A stretch of 21,619 nucleotides of DNA. Origin: a virus. Position 1 is the first letter of the stretch. Each line of letters opens with the position of its first letter. A program made the position numbers and the translations under genes. Location: positions 1 to 21,619 of the IMG/VR virus record IMGVR_UViG_3300034104_001971. The stretch is one strand, 5' to 3'. Below the pieces are notes generated by a model. It was not told the DNA's origin and searched no databases. It saw only the letters and a program-made list of their open reading frames with translations. Below, piece by piece: positions 1 to 21,619 of the stretch.

Positions 1-908
1 TCAAACTCTCTTGATCTCGCTTTTGCTTTTCTTGAGGCCCATGAATAGGCTTTTTTGTCATCCAACTTTGTAATAGCTTCAACCCAATCTTTGACATTAT
101 TCCTATCTTTAATATAAACACCTGCCTTGTCACAATTCTCCTTTAACCCAGGTGTATCAGTACAAATTACCGGAATCCCACTACACATCGCCTCTGTTGC
201 TGTCCGTCCCCAACTCTCATACTTTGATGGCATGAGAAGTATCCTTGTCTTAGCGTACCATTGCTTGATATTAGGCGAATTAGGCACATAAGTCACATTT
301 GGTAGGTTTGGAGTTATTTGCTCATCATACGAGCCAAAAACGCCTAAAAATGACTTGTGTGGCATTGCTCTTGCAATCTCGCCAAATATCTTACCGCCTT
401 TGTTTTCGTTTAAGTTTATTAAAGTGATATATTCAGACTTCTCAGGCTCATTCTCCAAGTCATAGTAATTGTAGTCTACTGGCGGAGTCACTATAAAATT
501 ACTAAAATTATAATTCAAAAGTTCTTTTAACCATAAAGAATTGTAGATTATATGTTGTTTTTTCTCCGCATCAATAATCTCTGGGTATGGATGACTATTG
601 TGGATCAGATGGAATACAGGCTTTCTATACATCTTTGCTGCATGGATTGTCCATCTTGTATAGTCCAAATGAGTAAACACCGCGTGACACCATCTCATCA
701 AGTTCTCAATCACATTTGGGTTTGGGGGAAATACATCAATTCCATCAAAAACATAATTATCCCTAATCTTGTACTTATTGGCATCATGTAAAAGAACTCT
801 TATATTGTGGCCCTTAGATTGTAAATCCTTCAGTATAAAATGTATCATATATTCCGCTCCGCAGTTATGCTCTGGCGGATATAGATGAATTGATGCAACT
901 ATATTCAT
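1..908 (-). CDS. GT4-like glycosyltransferase, GT-B fold (partial, 3' end outside window)
   Basis: The reading frame opens at ATG 908 and stays open to the window edge, giving 302 residues without a stop, so the C-terminus is missing. The sequence has the layout of a GT-B glycosyltransferase. An N-terminal Rossmann-like half begins MNIVASIHLYPPEH. The C-terminal half carries the family signature YESWGRTATEAMCSGIPVI, which contains the E-x7-E nucleotide-sugar motif, followed by TDTPGLKEN. Such enzymes move a sugar from a nucleotide-sugar donor to an acceptor in the cytoplasm. ATG 908 overlaps the stop of the FkbM gene as ATGA, so the two are translationally coupled. In this context the acceptor could be a virion protein or a host surface glycan; the sequence does not tell which. 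Confidence 0.85.
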   Translation of the reverse strand, partial: MNIVASIHLYPPEHNCGAEYMIHFILKDLQSKGHNIRVLLHDANKYKIRDNYVFDGIDVFPPNPNVIENLMRWCHAVFTHLDYTRWTIHAAKMYRKPVFHLIHNSHPYPEIIDAEKKQHIIYNSLWLKELLNYNFSNFIVTPPVDYNYYDLENEPEKSEYITLINLNENKGGKIFGEIARAMPHKSFLGVFGSYDEQITPNLPNVTYVPNSPNIKQWYAKTRILLMPSKYESWGRTATEAMCSGIPVICTDTPGLKENCDKAGVYIKDRNNVKDWVEAITKLDDKKAYSWASRKAKARSREF

Positions 909-1486
909 AATTTTAGTATTATATCCGCACCAACAATCTCACCTTTGTACTGCGGATATTTAATTAGTAATTCACTATAAAAATTATCGCTTATATAATG
1001 ATTCTCAAATTTAAGTTCTTTTACGCTATACTTTTTTAAATCAATTGTATTTAATATCCTCTCATCACATCCCTCTGTATCTATTTGTAAATAATGTATA
1101 TCTTTTATATCATGTAATTTACAAAACTGCTCAAATGTAATTGAATTTATTTCTATTGTTTCCAAAATATTTTTAGGTACTTCTTTTAAATATTTATTTA
1201 ACGGAATATTATTTTCAACCAATGAACTACATCCGTCTAAAAAAGATTCTTTTGGTAAAAATTCTGGTTTTACAAATGCCATTTGAACACTTGCATTATT
1301 ATCTAAAATAAATAAATTATAAGCATTTGCATTTGACAATTGCTTTATATTCTCTTTTAACTTTTCAAAATAGTATGGTACTGGCTCAATAAAATATGCT
1401 TGATAGTCTGTTTCATCTTTAAGTCTATCAAAGATATTGTCATGGCTTATGCCATCCATTGCACCAATAATTACATAATTTTTCAT
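905..1486 (-). CDS. FkbM-family SAM-dependent methyltransferase
   Basis: This 193-residue protein opens with MKNYVIIGAMDGISHDNIFD, a Rossmann motif I with the acidic residue typical of FkbM methyltransferases. It continues with YFIEPVPYYFEKLKENI, where the acidic residue at the end of strand 2 would bind SAM, and has the FkbM hallmark LQIDTEGCDERIL near residue 135. Family members usually O-methylate sugars or small molecules. It abuts the upstream GT25-like gene (stop TAA begins at the base next to this ATG) and overlaps the downstream glycosyltransferase by ATGA. This suggests a three-gene unit that builds and methyl-caps a glycan. By eye the gene is more AT-rich than the head genes, which hints at separate acquisition. 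Confidence 0.85.
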   Translation of the reverse strand: MKNYVIIGAMDGISHDNIFDRLKDETDYQAYFIEPVPYYFEKLKENIKQLSNANAYNLFILDNNASVQMAFVKPEFLPKESFLDGCSSLVENNIPLNKYLKEVPKNILETIEINSITFEQFCKLHDIKDIHYLQIDTEGCDERILNTIDLKKYSVKELKFENHYISDNFYSELLIKYPQYKGEIVGADIILKL

Positions 1487-2044
1487 TTATATCAATTTAG
1501 CTGCCGAGTCATCAAATATTCTCGTGTAGTCAACATATCCATTCCATAAATCGCTTTCATGTGGTCTTTGCCACGCTATCATGGGTTTAATAATATATGT
1601 GTTTCCTCTTGGATGTATATTGGTCTTTAACCAATCATCAAACATTATGCTTGTATCGCTATATCCTTTGCATAGTTCTTTTGGGTTATTGTACATCACA
1701 GCGTGTGTTGTCCATGCACCAAATGTCTTGTAAAGATTCTCACTATACTTCTCAATAGGAGCAATTAGATTCGCCCCAAGATAGCACAATTCCCAATCAC
1801 TTGGTAGTTGAGATATAGCCTCCTCAAAATGCGTAAAATCCCTTATCTCAACATCATCTTCAAAGAGCAATAGTACACCATCTGTGGTGTGCATTATCTT
1901 TTGCATTGATAGGTTGAAAGATGTCTTTGCGTCTATATGTGGAACAGCATAGACAACCTCACCACTCAATGAGTTCCTATGCATCTCTTTCAATGCACCA
2001 TAAAGCATTTTTGAGTTATTAGTAGATAGTATTTTTACTTCCAT
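1487..2044 (-). CDS. GT25-like glycosyltransferase
   Basis: This 185-residue protein has the short architecture of family-25 (LPS/collagen-type) glycosyltransferases. A leading strand is followed by a helical stretch, then LLLFEDDVEI near residue 60 with the acidic EDD metal/donor motif, then WELCYLGAN, and later THAVMYN, where GT25 enzymes have a conserved aromatic/His segment. It would be a cytoplasmic sugar transferase. It is the first gene after the terminator that closes the capsid operon and is followed directly by the FkbM and GT4-like genes. The family call is by motif only; another GT-A type transferase is possible. The acceptor is unknown. Being next to the major capsid gene makes a structural protein or the host envelope plausible targets. 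Confidence 0.7.
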   Translation of the reverse strand: MEVKILSTNNSKMLYGALKEMHRNSLSGEVVYAVPHIDAKTSFNLSMQKIMHTTDGVLLLFEDDVEIRDFTHFEEAISQLPSDWELCYLGANLIAPIEKYSENLYKTFGAWTTHAVMYNNPKELCKGYSDTSIMFDDWLKTNIHPRGNTYIIKPMIAWQRPHESDLWNGYVDYTRIFDDSAAKLI

Positions 2045-2114: not shown

Positions 2115-3284
2115 TTAGATAGCACCATAAACCGCAGCTGTTGGTTGGAACTGAAGCAGTTCACAACGAGCTTCGCAACGGAAGGTAATCAAGTTCTTGA
2201 TAAAGTCATCTTGATCAAACTCTGTGCTACGAACATTCAAACCAGATTGCTGAGCAATGGCGAACTTAGTAGTGTCCATTACATACATTCTGTTTGCAGT
2301 AACCAAAGAATGAGGAACAACAGGGATACCAAGGATTCTTACATTACCATTGTTGTCAATAACCATTCCACCAGGAAGTGAATAGTCATTTGGCTTGGTT
2401 TTCAACAAAGCAGCCCAACCGGCATGGGTAATCAAAGAAAGATTCGGCATCCAGTTCAAAGCACCCAACTGAGCAACATAATCAATGAACTTCTCAGCGG
2501 TGTTAGAACCAGAAGAAGAACCTGCGGTTGCAGAAGATGCAATGGCATTAAGATAATAAGTATCTTCTGCCCTTTGGAAATCTTCAATCAAAGACTGCTG
2601 AAGATATGCTTGCAAGAACGGCAAGTCATCAATCATCTGACGGCTTACTTTAGCGTAACCAGCGATGAAAGAGAGAGCTGTGTTTACAACTGTTACATCG
2701 TAATCAACTTGAGGCTTATCAGAACCTTCAGTTTGCTTACCGAAAGAACCTTCACCTACTGGAGTGTTACCACGAGGGAAAGAAACCGAACCGGTAGAAA
2801 CGGGGATGATGTTGAATACAGAACGCAGATGTGGGTTTACATAAGACCTCAAATAAGCGTTGTCAACATAAGATGTATAAACAGAACCAGTCAGGTTAGT
2901 ACCGATGGTCATTGTTTGTACGGCTTTGGCATCCATCTCATAAATGAAACCTTTACCATTGCCACGAGCAGCAGCTTTGATGTCGCCCCAACCTTTCTCG
3001 ATTGCAGTGCCAATCTCGTTCTTAATGTTCATGATGTGCTCACCATAAGAAGTAGCAACTTTTGCACTTTCTTTAGCTTGCAACTTTCCGAAAGCAGCTT
3101 TAGCTTCAAGAACTTCATTCCTTGCTTCAGCAGCAGTCTTGTTAGCTTTAACCAACTCTTCGTTGATTTGCTCAATCCTTGATTCGAAAGCCTTTGCAGC
3201 TTTCTCTGTGTTAACGGCTACTTCAGCCTTCTGCTCTGCGAACTTCGCATCAAGAGCAGCTTCAAACTTTTTTAAATCTTCCAT
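2115..3284 (-). CDS. Major capsid protein, HK97 fold
   Basis: This 389-residue protein forms the icosahedral shell. Residues 1 to about 75 are rich in Ala, Glu and Lys and predict a coiled coil, as in the scaffolding delta domain of HK97-type capsid proteins that the head protease removes. The remainder has the family look: a segment with TGSVSFPRGN, a helical spine region near YAKVSRQMIDDLPFLQAYLQ, and a late AWAALLK/GGMVIDNNGN/GIPVVPH stretch typical of the A-domain. It follows the S78 protease gene by 12 nt and is last in the head operon, before a strong terminator. This is the standard order portal, MuF, protease, capsid. No obvious cleavage site could be fixed by eye. Confidence 0.92.
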   Translation of the reverse strand: MEDLKKFEAALDAKFAEQKAEVAVNTEKAAKAFESRIEQINEELVKANKTAAEARNEVLEAKAAFGKLQAKESAKVATSYGEHIMNIKNEIGTAIEKGWGDIKAAARGNGKGFIYEMDAKAVQTMTIGTNLTGSVYTSYVDNAYLRSYVNPHLRSVFNIIPVSTGSVSFPRGNTPVGEGSFGKQTEGSDKPQVDYDVTVVNTALSFIAGYAKVSRQMIDDLPFLQAYLQQSLIEDFQRAEDTYYLNAIASSATAGSSSGSNTAEKFIDYVAQLGALNWMPNLSLITHAGWAALLKTKPNDYSLPGGMVIDNNGNVRILGIPVVPHSLVTANRMYVMDTTKFAIAQQSGLNVRSTEFDQDDFIKNLITFRCEARCELLQFQPTAAVYGAI

Positions 3285-3296
3285 TTTACTTTAAAT

Positions 3297-4442
3297 TTAG
3301 AATTTTCTTAATATTGATATAAGTGATTGCTCAAGCTCCTCGTTGTTCTTTTGCTGCACAGGTGTATTTTCAACTGCCTGTGTGCTACTCGCCTTTTCAA
3401 TTGCTTGCGCCAATTGCCTGACCTTAATCAGACATAGTTCAATTGTCTCATCAGTCACATCGCTGTTTCTGATAAACTTTTCAAATGTCTTAATTTGTTC
3501 TTGTATCTTAGTACATTCCTCCAAACTTTTTATCCCCAAAATTGGTGTATATTCATTTGCGCCCCAAGCAGTAAGGCTTGAACCTTCAAAAAGCATCACT
3601 TCATATATCTCATTAGCCTCTCCGCCTTTTTGCTCCCTCAGAGTCCTAAATCCAATTGAGTGTTCACCAATCAATCCACTCTCAACCATTTTAATGAAGT
3701 CTTGACCAAGCCTATGAGTTCCTACTTGTGAACGGTAGTATAGACCATAACCATCTTCCTTCAACTCAAGTATTTTACCAAGTGGTTGGCTTGGGTCATG
3801 GTTAAGCAAATGCTTTACCCTTCCTTTTGCCTCTGGCCCCCAATCTTGGATTGACCTCTTGAACGCACCTGGCATCATTATATCGCCATCAGAGTCAACC
3901 ATTCCGAATGCAGAGAAATAACCACTTACCTCGCCTTTCTTTGAGTCAACATCTTTTACGTTAGCCTCAAATGATTTGTAATTGTATATCATACTTTTTT
4001 TATTGTCAATTTGATTTAATTTTCTAATTGCCCACTCAATACCTGCATCTCCTCCCCATGCATCCCACATGATGCCACCACAACCCTCAGAGTATGGCAC
4101 ATCCTTGTTTTGCTGATGCCTTTTAAAAGATGCCATTCTTGCAATGGTATCTCTGCTTATTCTCTCTCTACTTGCCAATTGATTGGCTCTTGCCCAACCG
4201 ACAGGAGTACCACAATCACTACCATTCTCCTCTTTATACTTCAATGCCCTTTTAGCATTGTTGGTTGCTGCTTCTGGGTAATCGTTGTAGGTTTCTTCTT
4301 TGTACTTATCCGGTTCTCCCTTCTCATCTTCCTCTTGAGCAAGATAGGCAACGTAAGCGCGTTCAACACTTTCTCTTGATGTGTACATACACTCACCATC
4401 TCCTATCCTAAATGTTCCGTCACCGCAACTATATATCGGCAT
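3297..4442 (-). CDS. S78 (HK97-type) prohead protease with an extra N-terminal domain
   Basis: This 381-residue protein has two parts. Residues 151-300 are an S78 prohead protease: GYFSAFGMVDSDGD, then LLNHD with the likely catalytic His215, then GEHSIGF with the likely nucleophile Ser262. It would cut the capsid delta domain during head maturation. Residues 1-150 hold an additional module with NNAKRALKYKEENG, GTPVGWARANQLA, DTIARMASFKRH and EGCGGIMWDAWGG. I recall this module from other phage head proteins, but its function is unknown to me. ATG 3992 (Met151) lies after an A-rich tract and could be an internal start giving the bare protease. The C-terminal 80 residues are charged and helical. 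The gene lies 2 nt after the MuF-like gene. Confidence 0.9.
   Translation of the reverse strand: MPIYSCGDGTFRIGDGECMYTSRESVERAYVAYLAQEEDEKGEPDKYKEETYNDYPEAATNNAKRALKYKEENGSDCGTPVGWARANQLASRERISRDTIARMASFKRHQQNKDVPYSEGCGGIMWDAWGGDAGIEWAIRKLNQIDNKKSMIYNYKSFEANVKDVDSKKGEVSGYFSAFGMVDSDGDIMMPGAFKRSIQDWGPEAKGRVKHLLNHDPSQPLGKILELKEDGYGLYYRSQVGTHRLGQDFIKMVESGLIGEHSIGFRTLREQKGGEANEIYEVMLFEGSSLTAWGANEYTPILGIKSLEECTKIQEQIKTFEKFIRNSDVTDETIELCLIKVRQLAQAIEKASSTQAVENTPVQQKNNEELEQSLISILRKF
3990..3992 (-). promoter_or_regulatory. Possible internal translation start of the prohead protease
   Basis: An in-frame ATG (residue 151 of the long product) falls precisely where classical S78 proteases begin. The minus strand upstream reads GACAATAAAAAAAGT, an A-rich leader like those of other genes here. 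It could yield a second, shorter protease lacking the N-terminal domain. No direct evidence of use. Confidence 0.3.
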
Positions 4443-9145: not shown

Positions 9146-9334
9146 ATGTTTACATTAATCAACTCTCAGGGCCATTTCCTCACTAATTATGGTATGCAAA
9201 AATGGTGGTTTATTGATAGCATTGAATTTGCTTTCACTTTTGACAATTTCCAGGATGCTCAAAGCTTTATGGAATATCATGAAATAAGCAATTTAAAAGA
9301 CTTAAAAGTTTACACTATTAATACTAAATTCTAA
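9146..9334 (+). CDS. Small protein of unknown function (62 aa)
   Basis: This 62-residue soluble protein is not recognised. It begins MFTLINSQGHFLTNYGMQKW and is rich in aromatic residues (eight Phe, three Tyr, two Trp). A middle segment, FDNFQDAQSFMEYHEISNL, is predicted helical, and the C-terminus is a short strand (LKVYTINTKF). It may be a compact alpha/beta domain. It starts 6 nt after the 25-aa peptide and ends 13 nt before the next gene, as expected for one transcript. The composition and A-rich leader support a real gene. Confidence 0.6.
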   Translation: MFTLINSQGHFLTNYGMQKWWFIDSIEFAFTFDNFQDAQSFMEYHEISNLKDLKVYTINTKF

Positions 9335-9347
9335 AAAACAAAACAAC

Positions 9348-9734
9348 ATGAACACAGAAAAAACAGCAACAGAAATTATTGTTTCTAACATCATTGAAAC
9401 AATTAACACAATGGATGAGAACGAATTAGTTCAGCTTAACAATGAATATTGTCGGTCTATTAATGCGACAGATAGTGAAATTTATGGTAACGATGATGAT
9501 TTTATGGAAACTTTTTTCGGTAGAGGAACAGCTCCAATGCGATTAGCCCAGGCTATTTGTTACGGCGATTATCACTACTATCATGAATATGTACGCTTTA
9601 ACGGTTACGGAAATTTAGAAACATTTCAGAATATGACGACCGACCAACTTTGCGAACTTGTTCCAACAATGGCCGAATATATTGCTGAAAACTTTTATGA
9701 ATTTGAATACTTATTCCCTAATTATGAAAATTAA
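9348..9734 (+). CDS. Acidic phage-associated protein of unknown function (128 aa)
   Basis: This 128-residue, strongly acidic protein has a helical N-terminus (residues 1-40) and a distinctive central block: YGNDDDFMETFFGRG, then YGDYHYYHEYVRFNGYGN. The block combining NDDDF with YGDY and FNGYGN resembles uncharacterised proteins I recall from Bacteroidota phages and mobile elements; I know of no assigned function. High negative charge could suit a DNA-mimic or inhibitor role, but that is speculation. The start follows an A-rich leader. Its end overlaps the start of a 30-residue membrane peptide by 11 nt, so the two are likely coupled in translation. Confidence 0.75.
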   Translation: MNTEKTATEIIVSNIIETINTMDENELVQLNNEYCRSINATDSEIYGNDDDFMETFFGRGTAPMRLAQAICYGDYHYYHEYVRFNGYGNLETFQNMTTDQLCELVPTMAEYIAENFYEFEYLFPNYEN

Positions 9735-9816
9735 CCCACAACTTTTGCGCTTAATCATCGCGCTAATTATCGCGGGCCTAATTATTGGGCAACTCCAGGA
9801 TACTTACTCACTTTAA
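9724..9816 (+). CDS. Tiny membrane peptide (30 aa)
   Basis: A 30-residue ORF begins MKINPQLLRLIIALIIAGLI, giving a short basic N-terminus, one strongly hydrophobic helix of about 15 residues and a polar tail QLQDTYSL. This is the layout of a single-pass membrane micropeptide. ATG 9724 lies within the last four codons of the preceding gene (11-nt overlap), which argues for translational coupling. The stop is 20 nt before the next gene. Function unknown; a membrane toxin, an anti-lysis factor or a superinfection-exclusion peptide are all possible. Confidence 0.5.
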   Translation: MKINPQLLRLIIALIIAGLIIGQLQDTYSL

Positions 9817-9836
9817 AAACTATAAAAAAAACAATC

Positions 9837-10385
9837 ATGAAAACAGTATTTTCTAGCAATTCAGAACTATCAAAAGTATGGGCTAAACAAACGCAACAAA
9901 TAGGCCGGGCCTCTAATATGTTTTTTGATGGTGAAATAATTTATTCATACGGTCATCATTATCAAATAGCACATTTTATTGATGCTCCAAACGGTCAAAA
10001 AGTTTGTTTTATCAATTCAAATGGTTTCAGTAATTCAACCGCAAAACATACAAACCACGTTTGGCGATCTATCCCAAACAATATTTTGACTTTTTATGTT
10101 CCTTTCATTATTGACGGCTGTTATTGGTATAAAGAACAATATATAAAAATTGAGCATTTGCCAACCATAATAAATAAAATGATGGAAAACATTGATAAAA
10201 TAATATCAAAGCAATTAACGGCTAAAACCAATTTTCACTATTTTGGTCAGGCATACAATCAATACGCAAAGGTTTTGCACATTTGCGAACTTTTTAACAT
10301 ATCAAACCCATCAATACCCCAAAAATGGTTTGAGGCCGAAAAAAAGAGTAATTTAATATCCTATAAAATGGCATTGGTTAACTGA
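9837..10385 (+). CDS. DUF8033-like phage protein of unknown function (182 aa)
   Basis: This 182-residue protein carries the series WAKQTQQIGRASNMFFDGEI, IYSYGHHYQIAHF, then a turn with NGQKVCFINSNGFSNSTAKH. The W-x-x-Q, GRaxNMxF-x-G, YSYGxHxxIA and final S-x-T-x-KH pattern matches a domain of unknown function common in phages and mobile elements (DUF8033 from memory, not verified). The C-terminal half, from about residue 95, is helical and Ile/Lys-rich with no motif I recognise. It is the last gene of the plus-strand island and is followed by a clear terminator. Its start follows an eight-A leader. Confidence 0.75.
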   Translation: MKTVFSSNSELSKVWAKQTQQIGRASNMFFDGEIIYSYGHHYQIAHFIDAPNGQKVCFINSNGFSNSTAKHTNHVWRSIPNNILTFYVPFIIDGCYWYKEQYIKIEHLPTIINKMMENIDKIISKQLTAKTNFHYFGQAYNQYAKVLHICELFNISNPSIPQKWFEAEKKSNLISYKMALVN

Positions 10386-19951: not shown

Positions 19952-20416
19952 TTAATACACCAGATACGATGTCTTTCCGTTATTTCTTACTGCTTTGAGT
20001 ATTTGCTTTCTTTGCTTACCACTTGACTCATACGAAACGTGTACCCAGTCAGGGTTGTTTGCATCTCCGAACTCATAGATGAGCTGATCAAACTCAAGGT
20101 TGTCCTTGATATAATCAAAAACCATCCTATTGGTAACTCCGTTTGGTGTACCATCCATGTCTATGTCAATCGCTTCGCCCTGGCAATGTTGTGAGGTCAA
20201 TGATCCACCAATGGCAGCATTCAATTCCTTGCTTCTATACCCACTTGAGATATGTATAGGGCATCTGAAATGCTCTCTAATTGGTTGGAATACTTTCTCC
20301 GCTAATAACTTAAAATTAGCAATATGTTCTGCGGTTGGCATATTTGAAATACCTCTACGCTTTGCTGACTCTGACCTTACTACTTCTGATAGAGAAAGAT
20401 GCTCTGATAATTTCAT
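19952..20416 (-). CDS. Endolysin: M15-type peptidoglycan peptidase
   Basis: This 154-residue protein has the Peptidase_M15_3 layout. HISSGYRSKELNAAIGG precedes SQHCQGEAIDIDMDG with zinc ligands His77 and Asp84, and DWVHVSY holds the third ligand, His126. Such enzymes cut peptide bonds in peptidoglycan (D-Ala-D-Ala or cross-bridge) and serve as phage endolysins. There is no signal peptide, so release would depend on a holin. It starts within the stop of the spanin-like gene (ATGA overlap) and is the last gene before a terminator. Confidence 0.92.
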   Translation of the reverse strand: MKLSEHLSLSEVVRSESAKRRGISNMPTAEHIANFKLLAEKVFQPIREHFRCPIHISSGYRSKELNAAIGGSLTSQHCQGEAIDIDMDGTPNGVTNRMVFDYIKDNLEFDQLIYEFGDANNPDWVHVSYESSGKQRKQILKAVRNNGKTSYLVY

Positions 20417-20904
20417 TTCCTAAGTTTTAAATATATAAATAATGCAATAAGAACCAAAAGCGATATTAACCAAGATAAGCGACTATCTGCTTTTCCTTTC
20501 CATTGTATCACCTCGCCCGTTAAACGTGCTGAATCAGCCTGTAACAACCTCACACGAGCATTGTCAACAATGAATGACTTAATGGTATCGTGAATGGTGA
20601 TTGACTTTGTTATTTCACGAGTTTTCCACTTGGTGATGTAGGTTGTATCATTTAGGACATAAGTATCAGTAAGAGTATCAATCCTCACCAATGTATCAAC
20701 CTCAACAAGTGTATCTGATGTGGTGATGAATGTGGTATCATTTGCACAAAATCCACCAGCGACAACAACCTTTGCAACTTCTTCAAGTTTCTTCTGGTCA
20801 CGCAAAACCTGCTTTACTGGATTACAGGATAGCAACCAAAAAATAGTAAATACCAATATCAATGCAATTAGCAAGACATTAAGTGGGTCAATCTTTATTT
20901 TCAT
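20413..20904 (-). CDS. Candidate unimolecular spanin (lipoprotein signal plus C-terminal TM)
   Basis: This 163-residue protein starts MKIKIDPLN, then VLLIALILVFTIFWLLSC, a signal sequence ending in a lipobox-like LLSC with Cys27, and ends with one membrane helix, SWLISLLVLIALFIYLKLRK. The part between is rich in Thr, Val and Asp (for example TSDTLVEVDTLVRIDTLTDT) and predicted beta. A lipid-anchored outer-membrane end, a periplasmic beta-rich linker and an inner-membrane C-terminus are the defining layout of u-spanins such as phage T1 gp11, which fuse the two membranes in the last step of lysis. It sits between a holin candidate and the endolysin. No sequence similarity to known spanins was established. 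Confidence 0.6.
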   Translation of the reverse strand: MKIKIDPLNVLLIALILVFTIFWLLSCNPVKQVLRDQKKLEEVAKVVVAGGFCANDTTFITTSDTLVEVDTLVRIDTLTDTYVLNDTTYITKWKTREITKSITIHDTIKSFIVDNARVRLLQADSARLTGEVIQWKGKADSRLSWLISLLVLIALFIYLKLRK

Positions 20905-21106
20905 CTTTCTTAAATATTTTCTCTGCTGAAGTTAAACCAAGGCAACCAAAGGCAAGAGCAGAAACGCTATAAACCAATGCTTCGCTTGGTTCGGTTTCAT
21001 GGAATGAATTGTGATACATTGTAACGCAAATGATTATTACACAGATAAATCCGCATAAACGCTTCATTGAAAGTCTGCCGTTTTCTTCACAAAAAAATTG
21101 TTTCAT
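20888..21106 (-). CDS. Holin candidate (two membrane segments, 72 aa)
   Basis: This 72-residue protein begins MKQFFCEENGRLSMKRLCGF and has two hydrophobic segments: about residues 18-30 (GFICVIIICVTMY) and 43-60 (ALVYSVSALAFGCLGLTS), then a charged end, KIFKKDENKD. Size, two segments and the charged C-terminus fit a class II-like holin, which would open the inner membrane for the endolysin. Position supports this: 3 nt after the PAS-domain gene, 17-nt overlap with the spanin candidate, endolysin next. A second start at Met14 (ATG 21067) could make a shorter form, as in dual-start holins. Confidence 0.6.
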   Translation of the reverse strand: MKQFFCEENGRLSMKRLCGFICVIIICVTMYHNSFHETEPSEALVYSVSALAFGCLGLTSAEKIFKKDENKD

Positions 21107-21109
21107 ATT

Positions 21110-21619
21110 TTATTTTTTGTCTTGTGTTGCATATTTAATACCCATGATTGTACCTACTATTGAGAATGCATTTGTTAATAATACACTAAACATATTTGAC
21201 CACGTTGACCCAATAATCTGCGTATCCTTACCCGTTACCATTGCCATCCAATACATCACAGTCGTAACCAAACCAACACCTACAATTACCACCAACGCAA
21301 CCACAACGATTGTCTTAATCAACTCGGATTGTGATTTTTTCATCAGTATGTCCAAGTCATTCAATGCAGCGTTCTTCTCTATCTCAATGGCATTTTTTAG
21401 TTGTTGCGATTTATCCAATTCAAGTTGCAAGTCTTTAGAAAGAGCATCAATCTTGTTCTTATAATTGACTGTTTCTGTTATGTCAGTAGCAATCTTCATC
21501 ACCTTAGTGATGACATTGTTTTCATCAAAGATAGGATTGTAGGTTGCCTGTAAAAATATAGGTGCACCATCCATCTTCTTCCTTTCAAACTCACCCTCAA
21601 AGAACTTTCCGCTTCTTAG
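21110..21619 (-). CDS. PAS-domain membrane protein (partial, 5' end outside window)
   Basis: The frame stays open through the right window edge, giving 169 visible residues, so the N-terminus is missing. The first visible part, LRSGKFFEGEFERKKMDGAP then LQATYNPIFDENN, ending KIATDITE, is the C-terminal half of a PAS domain of the Aer/chemoreceptor type. A coiled coil follows (KNKIDALSKDLQLELDKSQQ and onward), then a hydrophobic segment, IVVVALVVIVGVGLVTTVMY, and a second weaker one, MFSVLLTNAFSIVGTIMGIK. PAS domains sense redox, oxygen, light or small ligands. No kinase, cyclase or chemotaxis domain follows. It ends 3 nt before the holin candidate, so the sensor may act on membrane permeability or lysis timing. 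Confidence 0.75.
   Translation of the reverse strand, partial: LRSGKFFEGEFERKKMDGAPIFLQATYNPIFDENNVITKVMKIATDITETVNYKNKIDALSKDLQLELDKSQQLKNAIEIEKNAALNDLDILMKKSQSELIKTIVVVALVVIVGVGLVTTVMYWMAMVTGKDTQIIGSTWSNMFSVLLTNAFSIVGTIMGIKYATQDKK

Follow-up and report, generated by a model that had tools for sequence, protein, structure and literature searches.

The time at which a phage lyses its host is usually viewed as being set by a holin-intrinsic clock or by a response to superinfection. The antiholin RI of T4 is a lysis-timing regulator that responds to superinfection (PMC11413866), and the protein described here would share with it the idea of a lysis time that is set in response to a signal. On the sensory side, BdlA and McpS have a layout of two PAS domains plus an MCP domain, and their PAS domains are predicted to bind FAD (PMC8694187); in Aer, the flavin pocket includes Gly28, His53, Trp70, Asn85 and Arg115 (PMC9668731). 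The four solved sequences nearest to our protein are those of MmoS (3ewk), Aer (two entries, including 8dik) and NifL (2gj3), all flavin redox or energy sensors, and these three proteins are also among its nearest matches by fold. In contrast to MmoS, Aer and NifL, the phage protein carries no kinase or signalling output: its PAS region leads through a coiled coil into a membrane hairpin, and we therefore refer to it as PAS-TM. Among the papers searched, none describes a PAS-containing protein within the lysis cassette of a phage. We propose that PAS-TM is a PAS sensor, specific to phages and anchored in the membrane, that sets the time of lysis from within the lysis cassette, a reading to which we assign a probability of roughly one half (0.52).

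The window analysed here, 21,619 bases in length, is an entire IMG/VR record and contains phage genes for a portal, a terminase, a prohead protease, a Mu F-like head protein and a primase-polymerase, among others. The PAS-TM gene lies on the reverse strand at the right edge (21110..21619 (-)), where 169 codons of its 3′ part are present and the 5′ part runs past the window edge. Numbered according to a full-length relative, L002, the visible frame comprises the C-terminal half of a PAS domain (21479..21619 (-), residues 78–124); a coiled-coil or long-helix linker (21320..21478 (-), residues 125–177), which forms part of a helix spanning residues 125–206 in the predicted model; transmembrane segment 1 (21233..21319 (-), residues 178–206), which is strongly hydrophobic, variable and non-amphipathic; and transmembrane segment 2 (21125..21223 (-), residues 210–242, TQIIGSTWSNMFSVLLTNAFSIVGTIMGIKYAT), which is amphipathic and invariant. 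In profile searches, the PAS half in the window gave only sub-threshold matches to PAS_9 and PAS_3 when taken alone.

A block of lysis genes follows on the same strand. The first gene encodes a 72-aa small membrane protein of the cluster that we call c1 (20888..21106 (-)), which starts 3 nt past the PAS-TM stop and is holin-like by position; it matched no curated family in profile searches of Pfam, PHROGs and NCBIfam. Next is a 163-aa spanin-like protein (20413..20904 (-)) that drew no match from the Pfam and PHROGs profile libraries. Read directly off the sequence, it carries a lipobox-like motif, ...FWLLSC, near its N terminus and a membrane helix, WLISLLVLIALFIYLKLRK, at its C terminus, a u-spanin-like arrangement. 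The last gene encodes a 154-aa M15 peptidase endolysin (19952..20416 (-); PF08291, E = 7.8e-19; phrog_894 endolysin, E = 6.9e-38), in which the Peptidase_M15_3 domain scores 68 bits against a cut-off of 23. The initial annotation had described a gene at the right edge with half a PAS domain, a coiled coil and two membrane segments, followed within 3 nt by a holin candidate and then by a spanin-like protein and an endolysin. The domain layout is borne out by the 169-residue frame, the 3-nt spacing is exact, and the two downstream genes are present as described; the 72-aa protein stays a candidate holin, a name that reflects its membrane segments and its position only.

Several other features of the locus were recorded in passing. 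Across PAS-TM cassettes, look-alikes of unimolecular spanins fall into three unrelated families (window:20413-20904 (-), L067:221-697 and L010:523-954), each with a lipobox at the N terminus and one membrane helix at the C terminus. Elsewhere in the window, a group 1 glycosyltransferase, an FkbM methyltransferase and a further sugar-transferase-like gene (3-2044 (-)) adjoin the presumed capsid gene (2115-3284); the S78 prohead serine protease (3297-4442 (-)) has an N-terminal extension of ~160 aa; a protein with the DnaA C-terminal DNA-binding domain (PF08299; 10582-10992 (-)) is encoded within a replication region of the primase-polymerase type; and a small gene block (9146-10385 (+)) runs in the opposite direction to nearly all other genes in the window.

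Because the window is the whole IMG/VR record, the remainder of the PAS-TM gene was taken from relatives. The full-length relative, of 246 aa (L002:5770-6510), has a C-terminal part identical to the 169 residues in the window. It starts at MKNLSKEELLSR and consists, in order, of an N-terminal helix, one PAS domain, the coiled coil and the membrane hairpin. Its PAS domain matches PAS_9 at 45 bits (cut-off 27), PF13426 at E = 1.2e-11, PF08447 at E = 4.5e-10 and TIGR00229 (sensory_box) at E = 1.8e-12; together with the fold match given below, these profiles place it in the PAS superfamily. In an AlphaFold model (mean pLDDT 67), the PAS strands extend up to residue 123 and are followed by two helices (residues 125–206 and 211–243) that are separated by a four-residue turn, and the best PDB fold match for model residues 21–132 is MmoS (3ewk; VIA-align, Z 8.5, 95 residues, rmsd 3.6). 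Two hydrophobic helices joined by a short loop are seen both in the model and by hydropathy, and both ends of the protein are predicted to lie in the cytoplasm (N-in/C-in). Many relatives have a second PAS domain and reach ~370 aa. Among the members scanned, none has a kinase, GGDEF, EAL or MCP domain, and the longer ones gain only the second PAS domain. The membrane region had been described as the only visible output on the basis of the half gene, with the caveat that the full gene might prove to be a host kinase or chemoreceptor. In complete members, the chain terminates with the membrane hairpin, and MCP, kinase and GGDEF domains are all lacking, in agreement with the original description.

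Two complementary scans of IMG/VR addressed how tightly the sensor and the hairpin are joined. In the first, which was chosen to avoid selection bias, the probe was a DNA pattern that covered a 13-residue stretch of helix 2 alone, and 92 of the 93 complete open reading frames (ORFs) picked in this way encode one or two PAS domains. The single exception is a 158-aa ORF from one contig (L125/L195) that starts within the PAS region; on this contig, the PAS-TM frame appears to be broken inside the PAS region with helix 2 intact. The second scan relied in the same way on 13 residues from the N-terminal region alone, and every complete ORF with this motif (207/207, pooled across all fetched loci and including contigs fetched more than once) ends in the identical 33-residue helix 2. 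The PAS sensor and the hairpin therefore constitute one fixed unit.

The PAS module has recognizable counterparts in bacterial chemoreceptors. An MCP encoded on a Pseudomonas putida plasmid (WP_121404315) shares 41% identity with the two-PAS form over 316 aa, and the PAS pair of the phage protein is 45–48% identical to those of chemoreceptors from several other species. With the MCPs of the BdlA/McpS type it shares the motifs GKHH, FW, FER and YNP, together with the tandem PAS pair, which is complete in two-PAS members and represented by one of its two domains in single-PAS members. By contrast, those MCPs end in PF00015, whereas the phage protein ends in the coiled coil and membrane hairpin: PF00015 was found in both bacterial relatives tested and is absent from L002 and L027. 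Because PF00015 is missing, PAS-TM is not a chemoreceptor; as judged from these alignments, the chemotaxis signalling domain is replaced by a membrane hairpin in the phage protein.

Comparison of the sensing pocket with those of Aer and MmoS gives a mixed result. The phage PAS domain keeps the flavin-stacking His (H57), the adenine-stacking Trp (W75) and the loop Gly (G29). However, the flavin-contacting residues N85 and R115 of Aer are replaced by Arg90 and Ala121, which are invariant throughout the family. The check for cofactor-binding residues that had been called for thus came out in part, with His, Trp and Gly kept and two key flavin-contact residues different, and a flavin or another redox cofactor in PAS-TM is plausible. 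These differences, together with the loss of the MCP signalling domain, would also be expected if PAS-TM were a captured chemoreceptor fragment with a dead sensor that has been kept as a coiled-coil or membrane scaffold, for example as an antiholin-like anchor. Several observations weigh against such a scaffold, which we consider highly improbable. An Arg at the R90 position is shared with related chemoreceptors, hence there is no phage-specific loss; many members retain two PAS domains; and N35, H56, H57, F60, W75, R90, Y104-N105-P106 and A121 of the PAS core are invariant in proteins that otherwise vary, which indicates that the PAS domain is under selection.

Constraint is strongest in the second membrane helix. 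In a set of 55 non-redundant proteins (<90% identical, plus L002), residues 210–242 are 100% identical, whereas the mean column identity elsewhere is 80% for the PAS domain, 78% for the coil and 77% for helix 1. Codon diversity in helix 2 (1.13 bits) matches that of the other regions (1.01–1.24 bits), which places the constraint at the level of the protein rather than of the DNA; conservation at the nucleotide level, through an overlapping gene or an RNA signal, is ruled out by the same measurement. An artefact of the search pattern is likewise ruled out as the source of the invariance, given that selection by the N-terminal motif yields the same helix 2. This helix is amphipathic (shuffle p 0.009), whereas helix 1 is not. 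Six small residues, spaced four apart between G214 and T234, extend along it as a small-xxx-small run (p 0.012). Between the window and L002, the PAS-TM genes differ by 21 synonymous and 0 nonsynonymous codon changes and the genes for the 72-aa c1 protein by 17 synonymous changes with no amino-acid change; the adjacent spanin-like genes differ by 25 nonsynonymous changes.

We examined the genomic setting in 27 large contigs (62–272 kb), in each of which PAS-TM is present as a single copy. Peptidoglycan hydrolases were sought with Pfam models for GH19, M15 and phage lysozyme, and an endolysin was recognized in 22 of the contigs. In 20 of these 22 it lies within 2 kb of PAS-TM; in the other two the recognized endolysin is 10–18 kb away. 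Random placement would give such proximity in ~5% of cases per contig, corresponding to P of about 7e-25 for 20/22, a figure that is in truth weaker, because some contigs are closely related, and still overwhelming. Hydrolases also lie within 2 kb of PAS-TM at 37 of the 45 non-redundant loci whose flanks are long enough, and about a fifth of the loci have none recognized within that distance. The initial annotation had held that its reading would fall if homologues were unlinked to lysis genes and had suggested a search for PAS-TM genes beside M15 endolysins; the association found is strong and extends beyond M15 to GH19 and GH24, three unrelated endolysin families. With complete members that end in the hairpin and homologues that sit beside lysis genes, a sensor domain within lysis cassettes that has the membrane region as its one visible output is well supported.

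A place in the late-gene region would suit other late functions as well. PAS-TM might be a late membrane sensor with a role outside lysis, such as superinfection exclusion or the manipulation of host respiration or membrane energy, and the invariance of helix 2 despite changing neighbours would fit a conserved host target. Extra genes that are unrelated to lysis do cluster near the lysis genes of known phages. However, linkage to three unrelated endolysin families in phages of ~60–270 kb is tighter than a drifting accessory gene would be expected to show, and none of the known defence families in PADLOC matches PAS-TM, so we regard a non-lysis role as unlikely.

The genes beside PAS-TM bear on a different alternative, that PAS-TM serves as the main holin, a hole former resembling class II (N-in/C-in) that is gated directly by the attached PAS domain. 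It has in common with class II holins and pinholins a predicted two-helix hairpin, a position in the lysis cassette and a small-residue zipper in helix 2, and the size of the hairpin and the position of the gene both fit; moreover, helix 2 is amphipathic and invariant, which could suit a pore helix that self-assembles. In three non-redundant cassettes (L176, L180 and L244), the gene immediately after PAS-TM encodes a GH19 endolysin, and no other recognizable membrane protein lies between or beside them on that strand, although the holin is frequently encoded elsewhere in large phages. By contrast, a PF05105 holin is found in the same cassettes at no fewer than four of the loci tested and at six more by resemblance, and many cassettes carry other small membrane proteins; relatives of the 72-aa c1 protein are present at 21 of the 45 non-redundant loci. 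(A distant and weak c1 relative also occurs among the baseplate genes of Flavobacterium phage MaF61 (L295:3989-4192), with no PAS-TM adjacent.) PAS-TM, at 246–370 aa, is far above typical holin size, consists mostly of a sensory domain, differs from class II holins and pinholins in often standing beside a PF05105 holin, and its pore activity is putative. Searches of Pfam, PHROGs and NCBIfam matched it to no holin family. On balance, a role as the main holin appears improbable.

To return to a sensor that sets lysis time, we infer that PAS-TM senses a redox signal or a ligand and thereby affects holin activity or lysis timing, as had originally been suggested. In the mechanism that we envisage, the PAS domains would lie in the cytoplasm as dimers held together by the coiled coil, and the redox cofactor or ligand bound to them would report the respiratory or energy state of the host. 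A change in the PAS domain would then travel along the long helix and rearrange the membrane hairpin, which would permit or trigger loss of the membrane potential and hence the action of holin and endolysin. Because helix 2 is constant while the neighbouring holins and endolysins vary, its partner is probably either itself or a conserved host membrane component, and less likely the variable holin of the phage. A self-partnering helix 2 would form a homo-oligomer, possibly a pore or a proton leak, in which case PAS-TM would act as a sensor-gated PAS-holin. Where a PF05105 holin co-occurs, PAS-TM may instead serve as a co-holin or an antiholin. There is a real chance that PAS-TM represents a new kind of gated holin. 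The fuller proposal, that a captured chemoreceptor PAS module and an invariant pore-like hairpin couple the redox or energy state of the host directly to permeabilization and lysis timing, is tentative, and we hold it with considerable doubt.

PAS-TM is widespread in uncultured phages: a first scan of IMG/VR recovered 219 relatives, and an alignment-based scan with conserved segments recovered 552. The same method applied to 84,980 bacterial and archaeal genomes, which requires exact octamers and may miss remote relatives, found none with the hairpin and none with the N-terminal part. A host-gene or contaminating origin is rejected on this absence of exact helix-2 and N-terminal octamers and on the portal, terminase, prohead protease and primase genes of the window. 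Among 50,697 records of isolated or deposited phages, no whole homologue was found and PAS-only matches occurred in three records; PHROGs contains no family that matches PAS-TM. The 33-residue helix also poses a puzzle by its invariance, in that its partner, whether PAS-TM or a host component, must match across very different phages. If the proposed reading is correct, PAS-TM would be a natural module that joins a PAS sensor to a membrane effector, and these phages would gauge the physiology of the host through a dedicated intracellular sensor ahead of the release of their progeny.
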